IMG/VR virus record: IMGVR_UViG_3300007734_000539 | Span: 1-27,728 of that record | DNA length: 27,728 nt | DNA from: a virus | Direction: 5' to 3' (one strand) | Part shown: one piece after another, positions 14,418 through 21,198 of the stretch | Layout: the number at the start of each line of letters is the position of its first letter | How positions within the stretch are numbered: the stretch's first letter is position 1 | Position numbers and translations under genes: made by a program | Notes under the pieces: generated by a model | Database searches by the model: none | What the model was told of the DNA's origin: nothing | Seen by the model: only the letters and a program-made list of their open reading frames with translations

Positions 14418-14645
14418 TTATGAGTTTGCTTTACGTTCCGCTTTTAACTTTTCGCGGTGAATCCGATCGAATTTCCCATGTGCAGAAGGAAACGAACCAG
14501 ACCACCCCTCAAGTTTAATAAACGGAGTTGAAATGACGCGGGAAGCTGCCGCGCCGCAGTCACACTGAACGCTATTGTGTTGATACTCAACGTAGCGTTC
14601 TAGCCTATGTCCGCTTTCGCAGACAAATTCATACATCCTTTTCAT
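14418..14645 (-). CDS. FmdB-like zinc-ribbon protein, 75 aa
   Basis: The N-terminus 'MYEFVCESGHRLERYVEYQHNSVQCDCGAAASRVIS' is a compact zinc ribbon with C9, H13, C28 and C30 as likely ligands (the family usually has C-x2-C, here C-x3-H plus C-x-C). The C-terminal half contains basic 'GKFDRIHREKLKAERKA'. Zinc ribbons of this type are frequent between the portal and scaffold genes of phages; their job is not established. GAGGAA before ATG supports this start, and the gene overlaps the preceding one by 17 bases. Confidence 0.8.
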   Translation of the reverse strand: MKRMYEFVCESGHRLERYVEYQHNSVQCDCGAAASRVISTPFIKLEGWSGSFPSAHGKFDRIHREKLKAERKANS

Positions 14646-14868
14646 TTAATTCCTCGTAAGCCCTGGAACTGATCTCGTTCAGATTTACCAGCCAATCCAA
14701 GATACTTAACTCACCTTTATTAAATTGTAACTGAGATTCATTCTCAATTACAGCGATATTATTTAATGTTTTTCTGATCTTTTCAACATCTTCTATTAAA
14801 TCTTTCCAGCCTTCCGTAGCCATCATAGAAAAGCGGTTTTCGTAGTATTTTTGAAGTTCTGGAGTCAT
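14629..14868 (-). CDS. Small conserved phage protein, 79 aa
   Basis: The protein (MTPELQKYYENRFSMMATEGWKDLIEDVEKIRKTLNNIAVIENESQLQFNKGELSILDWL at its start) is helical and acidic. The pattern 'YYENRFxMxATEGWKDLIEDVE...QLQFNKGELSILDWLVNL' is one I associate with a small conserved gene near the zinc-ribbon and scaffold genes in aquatic podoviruses. Its function is not known. The ribosome-binding site is weak (AAGG about 12 bases upstream). It starts shortly after the large adhesin gene. Confidence 0.75.
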   Translation of the reverse strand: MTPELQKYYENRFSMMATEGWKDLIEDVEKIRKTLNNIAVIENESQLQFNKGELSILDWLVNLNEISSRAYEELNEKDV

Positions 14869-14882
14869 TTAATTAAATAACC

Positions 14883-17800
14883 TTACATAAACATTAAAAA
14901 CATACCAGTGCCAACAGCAGGAGGTATTGGAGCATTTTCAAAATACCAACCCAAACTGCCGTTGTTGGTAGAGTTTGTCCCGGCATACCAGGTATCGGTA
15001 AGGTTGTATGCTCTGACCCCGGTTATAGCTAAGTAATCAACGGAAGGATCGTTAATTCCAGTAAGGATTAAGGTTGCAGGGCTGGAAGCAGAAGTGCCTT
15101 GTATCGTCAAAAGCCTACCCGCTTCGCCAGCGGCAGTCCACTGCGACACGCGCTGAGTAGTAGTCCCCAACGTAATATTAGTTGCGCCAGTAGCTTTGTA
15201 TGTGTTGGTGATGTCTTTGAATGTGTTGTTGCCTGTGATGGTCAGCGTACCTGCGCCGCCTTGGTCAACGGTGATGCCAGAGTAGGACAGGCCACCACCC
15301 GCAAAGGTTTTGGAAGATGCACTGGTCAGGCTGATAGTTCCTGTGCCTGTGACGGTGAGGTTTGTGGAAGTGCTTGCATTCCAAACACCCCCAGCAGTGG
15401 CCCCAGAAAGCGTCCAGGTTCCAGAGCCTATTGCAGCAGTTCTTGTTCCCGTGTAATTGGCTAGGAAAGGGCCAGACAGTGTTACGTTGTACCCGTTTGC
15501 GTCAAACGTACCTGCTTGCAGTTGAATTGTGTTGCTCGTGGCCGACCCGGTATAGGCGTCCTGGAGTGTTACCGATCCTCCCGGACTAATAATGGCTACG
15601 GCCTGCGGGAACGTCTTTCCTGCGCTTGTGACTGTCTGACTACCGCGTCCAGCAAACGTCAACGTCCCAGTACCCGTCAGCGTAGTGCCTGTTCCATTAA
15701 TCCAGTTGCCGTAGATCGTTGGTGCGTTTGTACTAGTTGCCAGCGTCATCGTGTTGCTGGTACGGGCACTCATGTCGATGGTGCCAACGTTATAGGCGGC
15801 GTTGAGGTTTAGTGTCGATCCTGAGGCCGGAGCAGTACTTTCAATGATGGCGGTGTCTTGAGCCAGCGGGAAATAAATGTCGTCTCCCGTCCCACCAGAT
15901 GTATTTGACCAACTAGCAGATGATGACCAGTTTGCTCCGGTTGTTACACGGTAAACCGTCTTACCCGCAGGAAACGTAATCCCGCTGTTGCCCTTGCAGT
16001 CACCCAATCGAGTACCGCTTACAGGAGCAGCAGCTCCAGCTATGGTGATGTCGCGGAAATCAACGTCTGTGCCTGAGAAGGCCGCTGCGGTGATTGTGCG
16101 GGTTGTGCCGATGGTGTCTGAGCGCACAAAAGTCCGCATTGTGGCGTTAGTGCCTGCGGAGAGCGTCAGAGTGCCGTTGATGGTTTGGTTAGCGGATAGA
16201 TTGATGTTGGCGATGCCAGCAGAGGTTCGGCCTGCAACGGACAGATTGTTAAAGGTGTTTGCACCGTTTAAATCAATAGAGGCTATAGTTGTTGCAGTAA
16301 AACTGAGGTTGTAAAAAGTTTGGTTGTTGCCAGAACAAGTAACGCCTGTTCCATTTGAGTTAATTTGTGACGTACCTGAGTTAAACGTAAAAGTGGCCCG
16401 TACGCTTTCGGAGCTGCCAAAGTTGAAAGAGGCAATGGTAACTGTTGAAGAACCAAGGATAATGCTTCTGCTGTGTAAGGTATCTGAAACAAGAGTGTTG
16501 CAGGTTAGATTGTAGTTTGCAGTGTCAAACGATCCGTTTAAAAACGTAAAACTGCCAGTGTTATTTAAAGCATCTGCCAGTGCCCACTCCGCGCTGACCC
16601 CGTTAACAGACAAACTAGATTGCAGCGCCACTCCGTTCGTCGTCAATGTCCGACCAGTAGACGAGCCAGACAGCGTGATTGCTCCGGTATATGTCCTTGT
16701 CAGTCCCGTTCCTGGCAGCGTCACGTTGCCGTGAATTCCGTCTATTGCTGTTGATCCAGCCAATGTCACGTTGCCAGATGCAGGGCCAGCAATGGTAAGC
16801 GACTTCATCCTGATTCCGCCGGTTACTGCGTTTACCGTGGCGGTGTACGCAGTCGCGTTTGACGAAGAATTAAACACGACATCGTCATGGCTTCTGGGAA
16901 CTGAAGCTCCGCTACCACCGCCTGAAGCAGTAGACCATCTCGCAGTGTCCGACCAGTTGCCTGTCCCGCCAACCCAGTAGCGGGTGGAATCTGCGGGCTT
17001 AGCAGTACGGTAAACAGGTGCTCCGGCAGACCCAGTAGAGTTAGCCCCAGCGTAAAACTCGCCCGGAGATGTAGCGGCAAAACCGATGCTCCCCATCTGG
17101 ATATAGTCAATACCAGAAGTGCAAGCGCCAGCAAGTACGTGAGAGGTTCCAGTCCCCGTTAGCGTGACTAAATTACCAACAGTTCCAGTAACAGTCCATT
17201 TGCCGAACGTCTGTGAGGTTGTACCAAGCGCAATGGTATGGGCTACGGTTTTGGTGGAGGCAAGCTCGGTGAACTGGTTGTCTTGCGAAATTGTTAGTGT
17301 TGATGTGCCCGTTGCGCCGCCAATGGTCAGCTTGTTAAAAGACAACCCCCCACCTGTAATTGTCCGAGCAGAGGCGCTTGTATCAGACAAGACAATGTTT
17401 GCTGTGCCTTTGTAGAAAGCAAGATTAGTTACTGTTGCTGATGCCCAAACTGCGCCTGTTCCCGATAACGTCCAAGTACCAGAACCCATTTTTAAAGTTC
17501 TAGTATTTGAAAAACTTGTATTAAACAACCCCGTCGTCACGTTGTAGCTGACAGCATCAAACGTACCGCTGTTCAGGGTCAGGGTTCGTGCGGAGTTTAA
17601 AGACAGTGCATCTGCAAGATTTACAGTGCCTGTGGCGCAATCGATTGTGATTGGGCAACCAAACGTTACACCGTTGCTGGTGATTGTTTCAGTACCCCTA
17701 GTAGCGAATGTGATCGTGCCGGTTGTGCTGCTGTTAGTCACTCCAGTTCCAAACTTCCAATCACCGTAAACAACTGGAGCGTTTGTGCTTGTAGTCAGCG

Positions 17801-19865
17801 TCATTGCACTGGTACGTGCAGAGGCATCAAACGTGCCGATGTTCCAAGCAGTATCAATCGTGATCGTGCCCGTCACCGATCCTGTGTTATCAAACACTGC
17901 CGTGTCTTGTGCCAGCGGGAAGTTATTTACCGCAGGTGATCCACCCGATCCTGTAGCCCATCCCGTTGCACTCCAGTTCTGAGCGCCAGCCAAGTTCCAG
18001 TAGACCGTCTTTGCCGCAGGGAATGTAATGCCTGAGTTGCCGCCGCAATTCCCTGCGCGTGTTGGAGATGATCCTGACGCTGTGCCAGCAATCGTGATGT
18101 CGCGGAAGTCGCAGTCTGTTGCGGAGAGCGTACCAACCGTCAGGGTGCGGGTAGTGCCAAGGGTGTCAGAGCGCAAGAAAATGCGGCGAACTGCTGTGGC
18201 TCCAGCAACGGTGAGAGTTCCGTTGATGGTTTGATTGGCCGAAAAAATATAATTTTGAACCCCGGCGCTTGCTGGAGCAGACAAAGTTAAATTATTAAAT
18301 GTGTTTACACCAGCTATGGTTATAAGTGGTGTTGCTAAGGTCGTTATAGTGAAATTGTAAAACTGCAACCCACCAGAATTTAAAACTGTGGAATCGCCAC
18401 CAATGCTTGACGCAGTGATTTGAGATGTGCCAGCACTAAATGTCAGGTTTGTTGTTGTAGTCAAAACAACGGACAATGACGAACTCAACGTCACCGTGCT
18501 ACTTCCCAACGTAATCGTCCTGACGTTGGAGTTGCTGGAAGACAAAGTTCCAGCAGTCACATTGTAGTTTTTGGTGTCAAACGTGCCGGTAACAATCAAT
18601 AAAGTGTTTGTGCCAATGTTCAGCGCATCAGCAAGTTCGACGGCACCGCCGTAGGTGTCAATAGTGATTGTTTGGGCAAATGTTTTACCTGCGCTTGTAA
18701 TTGTCTGCGTATTTCTTCCAAAAAACGTCAAGGTTCCGGTTCCGGTTAAGGTCGTGCCAGAACCGTTTGTCCAATTGCCATAAACAAAGGGATTTACCGA
18801 TCCGGTTGCCAATGTCATTGCATTGGTTCTTGTTGACATGTTAACCGTAGGCAACGCCAAACCAGACGCGCCAATAGCCGCATCAACCGTCACCGTTGCA
18901 CTGGTGTTCAGCCCAGTATTCTCAATAACAGCAGTGTCTTGAGCCAACGGGAAATTGTCTGTGCTTGCCGCACCACCAGATGTTGCTGCCCAGTTTGTTC
19001 CTGACCAGTTACCGCCAGCCGCAGTGACCCAATAAACTGTTTTTGGTGTAGACGCAGTGATCCCACGGATGCCGCGCAAATCACCAATGCGAGTGCCGCT
19101 GATCGGTGCAGCAGTGCCAATCACATAGATGTCGCGAAAATCAGCATCAGTCAGGCTTGGTGCGCTGTTGACGGTCAGGGTTTGAGCAATGCCGTAGGTT
19201 GTACCACGGAACCAGACCCGACGGTTTCCTGCTGTGCCAGTGGTGGACAGAGTTCCGTTGATGGTTTGTCGAGCAGAAAAAGTAAATTCAATAACTCCAG
19301 CGGAAGCAGGGCCAGCCACCGTCAAATTGTTAAAAGTGTTTGCTCCTACAATACCCTTTGTCCCTGTTGCCGTGCCAGTCCAACTAACATTGTAAAAAGT
19401 TTGACCAGTTCCACCATCAAAATTATTGCCAAGTCCACTGCAAATAATTGACGATGTGCCAGCGTTAAAAGTTAGATTGGTAGATATTCCAAATGTAATT
19501 GGGCTACTGTTTGCACTCAACGTCAACGTAGAGCTACCCAGATTGATCGTCCGTGTGTTGCTGTTGCTGGACGATAGGGTCGTGGCAGTGACGTTGTTGT
19601 TATTTGTGGTGAAGGTTCCAGCGGTTAAGGTAATCGCGCCAGAACAAGTCAATGTGCCGCCAAGACTCAATGTTGCAGCAGAAGCGTTAATTGTGACTGA
19701 AATGACAGATGCGTTGTAGTTCGTGGTAACTGTGGGCGAACCAGAGTTGCCATCAATGGTCACATCGTCAGCAGCGCCTGGAACAGACGCGCCGCCAGCC
19801 CCACCTGAAGTGGCAGACCAGTTTGTAGTATTTGTTGTACTCCAAGTTCCCGACCCGCCAACCCA
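14883..19865 (-). repeat. Five tandem ~1.03-kb modules inside the adhesin gene
   Basis: Repetition is visible at the DNA level as well. The segment coding FPLAQDTA (GTGTCTTG-GCC-CGGGAA core on the plus strand) occurs near 15852, 17901 and 18933; the distances are about 2,049 and 1,032 bases. Module starts correspond to about 19865, 19043, 18011, 16985 and 15962. Copies have diverged at many positions but keep frame and length. Confidence 0.85.
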
Positions 19866-19880
19866 AAATCGTGCGGCCAT
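14883..19880 (-). CDS. Giant modular beta-repeat adhesin, 1,665 aa
   Basis: This is the largest gene of the window. It encodes an almost entirely Thr/Ser/Gly/Asn-rich protein of short beta strands, of the kind expected for a beta-helix or beta-solenoid surface adhesin. Five modules of about 340 residues can be lined up at Trp6, Trp284, Trp628, Trp969 and Arg1311 (spacing 278, 344, 341, 342). Two kinds of module head occur: 'RFWVGGSGTW..W..SGG.GGASVP..DDV' (modules 1 and 4) and 'KTVYW...NWS..W..GSGG...FPLAQDTAVIENTG' (modules 2, 3, 5). Two kinds of module tail occur: 'NTFNNL...ANQTINGTL...DFRDI.IAG...GNSGIT' (1, 2, 4) and 'LGTT.Q....W...G..G.L..L.G......DY......Y.G.NST' (3, 5). There is no signal peptide and no protease or autotransporter domain. 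The start ATG follows the previous stop by one base, with AAAGG upstream. It lies between portal and scaffold genes, so a virion-associated (head or tail) adhesin binding host or environmental surfaces is the best inference. Confidence 0.85.
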   Translation of the reverse strand: MAARFWVGGSGTWSTTNTTNWSATSGGAGGASVPGAADDVTIDGNSGSPTVTTNYNASVISVTINASAATLSLGGTLTCSGAITLTAGTFTTNNNNVTATTLSSSNSNTRTINLGSSTLTLSANSSPITFGISTNLTFNAGTSSIICSGLGNNFDGGTGQTFYNVSWTGTATGTKGIVGANTFNNLTVAGPASAGVIEFTFSARQTINGTLSTTGTAGNRRVWFRGTTYGIAQTLTVNSAPSLTDADFRDIYVIGTAAPISGTRIGDLRGIRGITASTPKTVYWVTAAGGNWSGTNWAATSGGAASTDNFPLAQDTAVIENTGLNTSATVTVDAAIGASGLALPTVNMSTRTNAMTLATGSVNPFVYGNWTNGSGTTLTGTGTLTFFGRNTQTITSAGKTFAQTITIDTYGGAVELADALNIGTNTLLIVTGTFDTKNYNVTAGTLSSSNSNVRTITLGSSTVTLSSSLSVVLTTTTNLTFSAGTSQITASSIGGDSTVLNSGGLQFYNFTITTLATPLITIAGVNTFNNLTLSAPASAGVQNYIFSANQTINGTLTVAGATAVRRIFLRSDTLGTTRTLTVGTLSATDCDFRDITIAGTASGSSPTRAGNCGGNSGITFPAAKTVYWNLAGAQNWSATGWATGSGGSPAVNNFPLAQDTAVFDNTGSVTGTITIDTAWNIGTFDASARTSAMTLTTSTNAPVVYGDWKFGTGVTNSSTTGTITFATRGTETITSNGVTFGCPITIDCATGTVNLADALSLNSARTLTLNSGTFDAVSYNVTTGLFNTSFSNTRTLKMGSGTWTLSGTGAVWASATVTNLAFYKGTANIVLSDTSASARTITGGGLSFNKLTIGGATGTSTLTISQDNQFTELASTKTVAHTIALGTTSQTFGKWTVTGTVGNLVTLTGTGTSHVLAGACTSGIDYIQMGSIGFAATSPGEFYAGANSTGSAGAPVYRTAKPADSTRYWVGGTGNWSDTARWSTASGGGSGASVPRSHDDVVFNSSSNATAYTATVNAVTGGIRMKSLTIAGPASGNVTLAGSTAIDGIHGNVTLPGTGLTRTYTGAITLSGSSTGRTLTTNGVALQSSLSVNGVSAEWALADALNNTGSFTFLNGSFDTANYNLTCNTLVSDTLHSRSIILGSSTVTIASFNFGSSESVRATFTFNSGTSQINSNGTGVTCSGNNQTFYNLSFTATTIASIDLNGANTFNNLSVAGRTSAGIANINLSANQTINGTLTLSAGTNATMRTFVRSDTIGTTRTITAAAFSGTDVDFRDITIAGAAAPVSGTRLGDCKGNSGITFPAGKTVYRVTTGANWSSSASWSNTSGGTGDDIYFPLAQDTAIIESTAPASGSTLNLNAAYNVGTIDMSARTSNTMTLATSTNAPTIYGNWINGTGTTLTGTGTLTFAGRGSQTVTSAGKTFPQAVAIISPGGSVTLQDAYTGSATSNTIQLQAGTFDANGYNVTLSGPFLANYTGTRTAAIGSGTWTLSGATAGGVWNASTSTNLTVTGTGTISLTSASSKTFAGGGLSYSGITVDQGGAGTLTITGNNTFKDITNTYKATGATNITLGTTTQRVSQWTAAGEAGRLLTIQGTSASSPATLILTGINDPSVDYLAITGVRAYNLTDTWYAGTNSTNNGSLGWYFENAPIPPAVGTGMFLMFM

Positions 19881-19881
19881 A

Positions 19882-20094
19882 TCACTGCGCCTTTACATAC
19901 TTGACGCCATCAATCTCGATGAACTCAGGAGCGGGTTCCTCAACAGGAGGCGCAGTCACCACAGCAATCCAGTTGTCCCTGCGCTGAACCTTCATCGCCT
20001 TAATCTCGGCATCCGTGAAGGTGTGATTGTCAGGCAGATGCAGGGCATCCGCAAACTTGCCATGAGGGGTTTCAAATTCAAAGTCGATCTTCAT
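19882..20094 (-). CDS. Small fibre-associated protein, 70 aa
   Basis: The protein reads MKIDFEFETPHGKFADALHL, then PDNHTFTDAEIKAMKVQRRD, then NWIAVVTAPPVEEPAPEFIE, ending IDGVKYVKAQ. An N-terminal beta part leads into a helix (TDAEIKAMKVQRRDNWIAVV), a Pro/Glu linker and a final beta hairpin (IEIDGVKYVKAQ). I recognise this pattern as a small gene next to fibre or adhesin genes in aquatic phages, without known function. It stops one base before the adhesin start, so they are co-translated. A chaperone or connector role for one of the flanking fibres is a guess from position. Confidence 0.75.
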   Translation of the reverse strand: MKIDFEFETPHGKFADALHLPDNHTFTDAEIKAMKVQRRDNWIAVVTAPPVEEPAPEFIEIDGVKYVKAQ

Positions 20095-20103
20095 TTAGTC
20101 TTC

Positions 20104-21198
20104 TCAAGCCTGTGTTACTGTTGCTATAGCGTCCCAAAATACATCGGTAGAATTGTAAATACAGCCTACATAAGTTATCTTAGATGCTGTAGTGGTAGTT
20201 GGCAGCGTAATTCCAACGGCCCTGTATGCACCGCTTGTAGTAGTCCAGGTAATAGCCCTTCCGGTTCCATTATCTTCAAAGCGAAGAATTATTCTTTGCC
20301 CGTCTACTGGAGTTCCGCTTGGCGCTAACATAGTAATCGCGCCAGTTAAACCAAAGGCATTAAAAACGTCCGTCGCATCCCCGTCTGGCGTCAAATTTCC
20401 TGATGTAGAGCCAGCAGAAACGGCGCGAGGGTTAACCCTTTTACTACTTAGAGTTTGTGTGTCAGTTGTGCCTACAACGCTTCCAGACGGCAACGATTTC
20501 CCACCGTCTTTAATAAGTTTTCCTGAAGTGCCATCAAACAATACAATATTATTTGCAACGCTTGATGCTGGCCCGGAGACATCCCCGCCTCCACCTCCAC
20601 CGGTTACGTTAACAGTTACAGAGTCTCCAGAAGCGGTAGCCGTAACTCCGCTTCCAGTAAAATTGATGCTCGTAACACCACTAGTGATTACGTTGCCTTC
20701 ATCTTTAATCTCCACCGATGCGTTGGTGGACATGGTGTTGATAACTTTAATTTTCTCTGCGATGTCAACCGGAACAATCTCTCCGACGTTAATTTCCGTT
20801 CCGTCTGAAAGATAAAAAACAAGACTTCCGTCAAAGTCGATGCTGGCGTTGGTGACAGAAACACCGTCCTGACCGTCCTTGCCATCTCGCCCGTCGCGGC
20901 CGTCTTTGCCATCCGCACCGTCTTGGCCTGGCGCACCGTCCAGCCCGCGGTCACCCTGATCGCCCTTCGGCCCACGCTCTGGCACGATAGACCTGGCGTA
21001 GTCCAGTTGTGCTTTCGTCTCTTGCCTGATCTTGTTGATCTCATCAATAATCAACTGCACATTGAACTTGACGCGCTCCTCCTTCTTGGCTTTTAGCTCC
21101 TGAAGGGAAGCCTCGACCTGAGAGAGCGCGGCGAGTTTCTCCTCGTAGGAGATGTCGCCAGATTCGATCTTGCGGAGGAGGTCTTTGACGTTAGGCAT
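20104..21198 (-). CDS. Collagen-like fibre protein, 364 aa
   Basis: Three parts are clear. Residues 1-72 form a charged coiled coil (MPNVKDLLRKIESGDISYEEKLAALSQVEASLQELKAKK at the start). Residues 76-114 are 13 uninterrupted Gly-X-Y triplets, mostly G-x-D with Lys/Arg/Asp, as in bacterial and phage collagens. Residues 115-364 are beta-rich, with a poly-Gly hinge (about 200-206), fibre-type sequences ('NNIVLFDGTSGKLIKDGGKSLP') and a C-terminal capping domain resembling phage fibre tips ('GDATDVFNAFGLTGAITMLAPSGTPVDGQRIILRFEDNGTGRAITWTTTSGAYRAVG'). A trimeric fibre is therefore very likely. It overlaps the portal gene by 8 bases. Its place in the head block suggests a head fibre or portal-vertex fibre, but a tail fibre cannot be excluded. 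Confidence 0.88.
   Translation of the reverse strand: MPNVKDLLRKIESGDISYEEKLAALSQVEASLQELKAKKEERVKFNVQLIIDEINKIRQETKAQLDYARSIVPERGPKGDQGDRGLDGAPGQDGADGKDGRDGRDGKDGQDGVSVTNASIDFDGSLVFYLSDGTEINVGEIVPVDIAEKIKVINTMSTNASVEIKDEGNVITSGVTSINFTGSGVTATASGDSVTVNVTGGGGGGDVSGPASSVANNIVLFDGTSGKLIKDGGKSLPSGSVVGTTDTQTLSSKRVNPRAVSAGSTSGNLTPDGDATDVFNAFGLTGAITMLAPSGTPVDGQRIILRFEDNGTGRAITWTTTSGAYRAVGITLPTTTTASKITYVGCIYNSTDVFWDAIATVTQA
20857..20973 (-). repeat. Collagen-like Gly-X-Y repeat
   Basis: Thirteen consecutive Gly-X-Y triplets (residues 76-114 of the fibre protein), beginning GPKGDQGDRGLDGAPGQDG. The codons vary (GGC/GGA/GGT), but the nine-base unit GGC-NNN-GAC recurs. Confidence 0.93.

Follow-up and report, generated by a model that had tools for sequence, protein, structure and literature searches.

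A giant five-module phage gene that probably joins two smaller adhesin units

The stretch of DNA considered here (the window) is the 27.7-kb virus record IMGVR_UViG_3300007734_000539 from IMG/VR (27,728 nt), which is possibly a fragment. A single open reading frame (ORF) on its minus strand, 14883..19880, encodes a giant protein of 1665 amino acids with five consecutive modules, each consisting of a head half of type A or B and a tail half of type X or Y. The protein is probably a phage surface adhesin made of parallel β-helix modules of about 340 residues, in which one A...Y unit has been joined to a second, A-X-B-Y unit. The gene is divided as follows, with the evidence for each feature in parentheses:

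14883..19880, minus strand: five-module adhesin gene, 1665 aa (ORF and translation; five-module segmentation with hidden Markov models, HMMs)
19044..19880, minus strand: module 1, residues 1-279, A head and X tail, without 67 residues present in the others (self-comparison, alignment, HMM segmentation)
18012..19043, minus strand: module 2, residues 280-623, putative chimera of a B head half and an X tail half (half-module trees; window identities)
18555..18587, minus strand: GTFDTKNYNVT motif, residues 432-442, where module 2 switches from B-like to X-like (identity comparisons)
17004..18011, minus strand: module 3, residues 624-959, B head and Y tail, closing the first unit (trees)
16965..17060, minus strand: putative fossil joint, residues 941-972, EFYAGANSTGSAGAPVYRTAKPADSTRYWVGG, a Y end running into an A start (compared with stand-alone ends and starts; shared with the four-module relative L312)
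15963..17003, minus strand: module 4, residues 960-1306, internal A head and X tail, opening the second unit (trees)
14886..15962, minus strand: module 5, residues 1307-1665, B head and Y tail, with the C-terminal end GTGMFLMFM (translation, trees)

The order of the halves is thus A-X, B-X, B-Y, A-X, B-Y. The A heads carry RFWVGG at residue 4 and RYWVGG at 967, while the B heads carry KTVYW at 280 and 624 or KTVYR at 1307, followed by FPLAQDTA at 310, 654 and 1337. X tails are marked by NTFNNL (181, 526 and 1208), INGTL (207, 552 and 1234) and DFRDI (247, 591 and 1274), and Y tails by AGANST at 944 and AGTNST at 1633. This layout had been proposed in a first-pass annotation made from the sequence alone; the motifs lie where it placed them, and its four types are recovered by the trees described below. 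It had also described five modules of about 340 residues; the number holds, but module 1 is shorter, with 279 aa against about 345 aa for module 4. Among the five-module relatives, module 1 comes in versions of about 156, 279 and 340 residues, as if helix coils had been deleted from the first module only. The LGTT motif offered as a mark of Y tails is not specific to them, occurring in an X tail as well (574). A Y tail does close the protein, as proposed, but the true C-terminus lies some 20 residues past the GSLGW given as its end (...YFENAPIPPAVGTGMFLMFM).

A dot plot of the protein against itself shows the expected off-diagonals linking modules 1-3 to 4-5, with offsets of 961 (the heads of modules 1 and 4), 1023-1028 (1 with 4 and 2 with 5) and 682-686 (2 with 4 and 3 with 5). 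When residues 1-961 are compared with 962-1665, the match reaches 364 bits (E 1e-117). Between single modules, BLASTP gives 149 bits for modules 1 and 4 (E 2e-47), 174 bits for 3 and 5 (E 2e-56), 196 bits for 2 and 4 and 164 bits for 2 and 3. The two pairs that differ in both head and tail score far lower: 31 bits for modules 1 and 5, modestly above shuffled controls (maximum 24 bits), and 19.6 bits for 4 and 5 (E 0.12), within them.

Trees built separately from head halves and tail halves, using 14 diverse relatives, group the heads as A = {1,4} and B = {2,3,5} and the tails as X = {1,2,4} and Y = {3,5}, with every split at 100/100. In the whole-module tree, modules 1 and 4 are sisters, as are modules 3 and 5, both at 100/100, and module 2 stands apart. 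Its first half groups with module 3 and its second half, weakly, with module 4; the change of type falls at module position 154-160, around a GTFDxxNYNVT motif. On these groupings, a B|X chimera with its break in mid-module accounts for module 2 better than a primitive module does.

Relatives of the giant are common in viral contigs. About 70 distinct ones have five modules in the same order, the lower module counts among them belonging to sequences truncated at a contig end or interrupted by a frame break. Searches with the B-head motif FPLAQDTA, and subsequently with the A start and Y end, recruited the shorter forms. Counted as complete distinct ORFs, there are 54 stand-alone A-X-B-Y proteins (606-1067 aa, median 709 aa), 28 one-module A-Y proteins, one recognised A-X-B-X-B-Y protein (1021 aa) with three more A-X-B-X-B proteins in which no last tail is recognised, about 60 proteins with five modules (for 16, the scoring missed a shortened first head) and one A-X-B-Y-A-X-B-Y protein of 1987 aa, with a second contig at 90% identity. 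The first-pass annotation had predicted free-standing homologues that end in Y; many of the A-X-B-Y proteins stop just after the Y tail, and the pairing of A and Y at the two termini is seen in the relatives.

Across all distinct ORFs, the halves follow one another as X-B (431 times), A-X (278), B-Y (278), B-X (122), Y-A (111) and A-Y (37), and Y is never followed by B. The exceptions are few: X-A 5 (mostly heads that are ambiguous between A and B), A-A 5, A-B 2, Y-Y 1 and B-A 1. Nearly all relatives obey a rule A(XB)nY, under which a Y followed by an A is the fusion joint. The window protein fits this family, starting with A, ending with Y and joining its modules only as X-B or Y-A; for this protein taken by itself, no more than 4 of the 100 labelings with two A heads and two Y tails would satisfy the rule. 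A five-module gene also lies at 6498-11099 of L418, a contig binned as a Verrucomicrobia genome, which may be a phage contig in the bin.

The supposed fossil joint near residue 960 is indeed where a Y end runs into an A start, at 941-972, and it is clearest in relatives. Stand-alone proteins end in WYAGANSTNVSNNTGWIFTAPPAG...FFLMF (L095) and start with MADRYWVGG or MANRYWVGG; in conservative five-module relatives such as L048, the joint reads EFYVGANSTNVSNNTRVVFTATPAPRTLYWVGG. An HMM of the stand-alone ends scores 28-37 bits over 24 columns on these conservative joints. In some relatives, then, what looks like a stand-alone C-terminus can still be read at the joint, followed directly by a stand-alone N-terminus. 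The joint is also present in the four-module relative L312, where the second tail falls with module 3 (100/99) and the third head with module 4 (100/98), from which it follows that the joint has one origin and that a fifth module was either added after the joint or lost by L312. The fusion is old and common to every five-module relative, not particular to the window gene.

The C-terminal end varies among the relatives. In 17 of them (e.g., L003 5690-5730 and L004 8770-8810), the adhesin ORF ends in ...GVRAY(PL), just before the WYAG motif, and in all but one of these, the stop overlaps the ATG of a next ORF that starts with WYAG. This next ORF carries WYAG.NSTNNGSLGW, in several cases followed by GVSATG-type repeats. 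The arrangement suggests that a coupled second gene supplies the last strand and the extension in these relatives, and hints that WYAG is a natural boundary. A programmed frameshift was considered and is not the first choice: the ATG of the second frame overlaps the stop (CTATGAC... or TRATGAGC...), so stop-start coupling is preferred, though less clearly for L066. Twelve relatives (e.g., L006, L008, L011, L048, L056 and L081) have about 300-720 extra residues after module 5, with SETSTATDA-type repeats and, in many, also a tail of W..I(D/N)D.Q.P.W-like repeats.

On the minus strand of the window, the genes run in the order terminase, SU10-type portal, collagen-like fibre protein, g70, giant gene, 79-aa gene, zinc-ribbon gene, scaffold-like gene and major capsid protein, followed by an SU10-type adaptor and further structural genes. 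The giant gene is thus flanked by the collagen-like fibre gene on one side and by head genes on the other. Its immediate neighbours are:

20104..21198, minus strand: collagen-like fibre protein with a phrog_3030 C-terminal domain (neighbour in the conserved gene order)
19882..20094, minus strand: g70, a small 70-aa partner gene directly upstream of the giant gene (neighbour survey of relatives)
14629..14868, minus strand: 79-aa gene, downstream edge of the adhesin slot (slot comparison)

The small zinc-ribbon-like gene, at 14418-14645 among the head genes, keeps its position throughout this phage group. Among genes with upstream sequence, g70 directly precedes 51 of 57 A-X-B-Y, 49 of 51 five-module and 17 of 28 A-Y genes. 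Genes of this type, 70-100 aa, thus accompany about 90% of the two- and five-module relatives, on differing phage backbones. The gene has a weak match to Pfam DUF2673, just above the cut-off. It is a candidate chaperone or adaptor, and might be required for folding or attachment of the adhesin.

The order portal, collagen-like, g70, adhesin, 79-aa gene, zinc ribbon, scaffold and capsid defines a slot that recurs in other phages. Considering complete distinct proteins with both flanks, the slot holds 15 A-X-B-Y, 11 one-module, 4 five-module and 4 A-only forms, with the window in addition. On a tree of the portal proteins, one- and two-module forms alternate repeatedly among near-identical phages. 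The nearest relatives of the window, with 90% identity in the portal, have the A-only form; the remaining five-module phages are placed elsewhere on the tree. This pattern implies that module number changes fast and that the giant cassette probably moved between phages.

The short A-Y proteins examined equal two stretches of their A-X-B-Y relatives, residues 1 to about 160 and from about 513 onwards to the end, as if one module had been removed. Their junction lies mid-module, at about the same place as the type switch in module 2. Such an exchange would have A-X-[B|X]-B-Y as its reciprocal product. The first three modules of the giant have exactly this layout, and the two may be linked in this way. 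Common ancestry of the A-Y genes is also possible. A hot spot of DNA similarity was sought as the cause of the mid-module junction and was not found.

Putting this together, the unit gene most likely has the form A-(X-B)n-Y, with A at the start of the protein, Y at its end and X-B linking adjacent modules. An A...Y unit was then probably joined in frame to a second A-X-B-Y unit, losing the stop and the hydrophobic FLMFF-type end of the first, so that its Y end now passes straight into an A head. The first unit contains an additional module, the B|X chimera with its halves meeting mid-module. The opposite rearrangement, uniting an A half with a Y half and losing X and B, would have produced the one-module A-Y proteins that sister phages carry at this locus. 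The joining of two A...Y units is accepted here. The analysis shows the modules, their grammar, the joint, the shared slot and the predicted fold; the direction of change and a recombination mechanism are what we infer, along with virion location, binding and the role of g70.

Several results weigh against parts of this scheme. In approximately unbiased (AU) tests that included the stand-alone proteins, an exclusive pairing of modules 1 and 4 is rejected in the A half (7e-33). For modules 3 and 5, the B half rejects such a pairing (8e-5), as does, weakly, the Y half (0.0135). Once stand-alone proteins are added, the two halves of the giant are thus no longer each other's exclusive nearest relatives. 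The window's own joint is eroded, scoring 11.8 bits with the profile of stand-alone ends. At the mid-module junction there is no peak of nucleotide similarity, which leaves a crossover by homology unsupported. Growth as opposed to shrinkage of module number is not proven, and the location of the protein on the virion and its binding to cells are likewise deduced rather than proven. Some of the rejections depend on the data included or on the half compared: that in the Y half disappears (0.39) without the stand-alone proteins L106 and L116, and the X half gives no rejection of modules 1 and 4 (0.16). Recombination can also mimic such rejections. The heads of module 1 and the B heads of module 5 are scattered among the stand-alone proteins, which suggests continuing exchange.

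How the two units came to be related allows several histories. The first-pass annotation had proposed a fusion of two copies of one adhesin, and this was largely right: the joining of two A...Y units stands, although descent from one gene by duplication is not shown by the tests. It is a serious possibility, a little short of even chances, that one A-X-B-Y gene was duplicated in place and fused, and that later recombination with circulating stand-alone versions blurred the sisterhood. Both halves have the same order, the pairs 1 and 4 and 3 and 5 are sisters when outsiders are absent, and the X test, as well as the Y test without L106 and L116, is compatible with it, whereas the AU results in the A and B halves and the scattered heads of modules 1 and 5 speak against it. 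The rejections speak for another history, in which recombination between phages brought together and fused two adhesins of one family after they had diverged; this, too, we hold quite plausible without giving it even odds. L106 and L116 match module 3 in Y, module 2 in X and module 1 in A, while L126, L110 and L144 match module 4 in X and module 5 in B and Y. However, few stand-alone proteins lie behind this pattern, which could reflect exchange after the fusion.

An ancestral giant, from which the one- and two-module proteins derive by deletion or splitting, is improbable. Module number clearly varies at the locus, with A-Y and A-X-B-Y forms among phages with nearly identical portals, but the two-module forms are frequent and varied, and the joint resembles a real protein end and a real start whose signatures the giant's own termini also bear. 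Stepwise amplification of one module, with the A, B, X and Y types arising by position-specific selection rather than descent, has a parallel in bacterial surface proteins with plain A-A-A-A repeats of related modules, but is very hard to credit when modules 1 and 4 and modules 3 and 5, rather than neighbours, are sisters at 100/100, an A opens the stand-alone genes and a Y closes most of them, and the joint carries an end and a start.

AlphaFold2 models of single chains are almost all β, with a pLDDT of 90.3 for residues 1-961 and 86.4 for 624-1665. Aligned with solved right-handed parallel β-helices (VIA-align), the model of module 2 matches AlgE6 (Z 15.6, 292 residues), the Phi92 gp150 tailspike (Z 15.5, 276 residues) and the P22 tailspike (Z about 14), with an rmsd of 3.7-4.0 for the top alignments. 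Each module is accordingly predicted to be a right-handed parallel β-helix. A Foldseek search of the PDB with the 961-residue model gave no match with E <0.001, and a sequence search of the PDB found none for the giant protein. Pfam, PHROG and NCBIfam hold no significant family for it, nor does PHROG for seven stand-alone relatives; a Pfam DUF881 match (E 0.013), below the cut-off, was set aside as chance. The protein opens directly with an A head, and no attachment domain was matched in Pfam or PHROG.

Collagen-like and fibre genes are frequent neighbours of the relatives, with tail-fibre genes beside L158, L006 and the P19250A gene discussed below. The best reading, and one we consider moderately likely, is that of a host-binding fibre or spike. 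Carried on the virion, it would bind the host surface, the number of modules setting its reach and its count of binding faces. A tailspike enzyme that degrades capsule or polysaccharide is a less likely function: among its best structural matches are an epimerase, lyases and the tailspikes of Phi92 (a colanidase) and P22, but a shared β-helix alone shows no activity, and the non-enzymatic adhesins SRRP, Ag43 and UpaB also score well. More tentatively, and with less confidence than the binding role itself, the slot could act as a length-and-valency dial, through which near-identical virions gain or lose whole β-helix modules at fixed half-module junctions, the one- to five-module versions setting which hosts or surfaces are bound.

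The growth of giant phage fibres and adhesins is usually guessed from the finished giants. Here, intermediates have been preserved, several of which share one genomic slot and its flanking genes, and in some relatives the joint shows the old end and start, so that natural variants offer a way to test how a probable host-binding protein grows. Although common in viral contigs, the family is missing from the family libraries searched and was previously unnamed. A name for it would bring annotation to many genes that have none, one of them in an isolated Limnohabitans phage. A literature search on modular or fused β-helix adhesins found no paper on this adhesin family by title or abstract.

Among known systems, an autotransporter adhesin (type V secretion) is a poor parallel. 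The window protein ends with GTGMFLMFM right after module 5 and lies among phage head genes, no autotransporter domain was found in the Pfam search, and a C-terminal outer-membrane barrel is lacking. Bacteroidota surface proteins have repeated modules of similar length with A-type heads, but these are mostly A-A-A arrays with no B heads and rare, weak X or Y matches, and some are annotated with T9SS or gliding-motility C-terminal domains. A plasmid search returned only such Bacteroidota proteins and one Bradyrhizobium hypothetical protein, with weak scores. The P22 and Phi92 gp150 tailspikes share the right-handed β-helix predicted for module 2, but the window protein has no detectable sequence similarity to PDB chains and has five modules in a row.

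Closer parallels come from other phages. A "PE family protein" of Methylophilaceae phage P19250A starts with an A head and directly follows the host specificity protein J and a tail fibre gene; it differs in its length of 925 aa and in that only the A head is recognised. A0A6J5T8W4, a "Parallel beta-helix repeat" protein of an uncultured Caudovirales, is present in BFVD as two 754-residue pieces, each 52% identical to one of the structure models. The match covers most of each piece, and the protein evidently belongs to the same family, although its name is automatic and neither module grammar nor function is seen in its record. Limnohabitans phage DC31 (PQ492658) is long-tailed, with a tail length of about 203 nm (PMC12195039); the window, by contrast, encodes a portal and an adaptor of SU10 type. 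The taxonomy line of PQ492658.1 reads Pakpunavirus, although the DC31 paper (PMC12195039) gives a long tail. The adhesin gene is cut at both ends of this record (L002 and L083) and annotated as fragments, merely as small hypothetical proteins. The record origin splits it so that four modules lie at one end and the last B-Y module at the other. No other named phage in the collection has the full-length family; in DC31, as in the window, g70 lies upstream.

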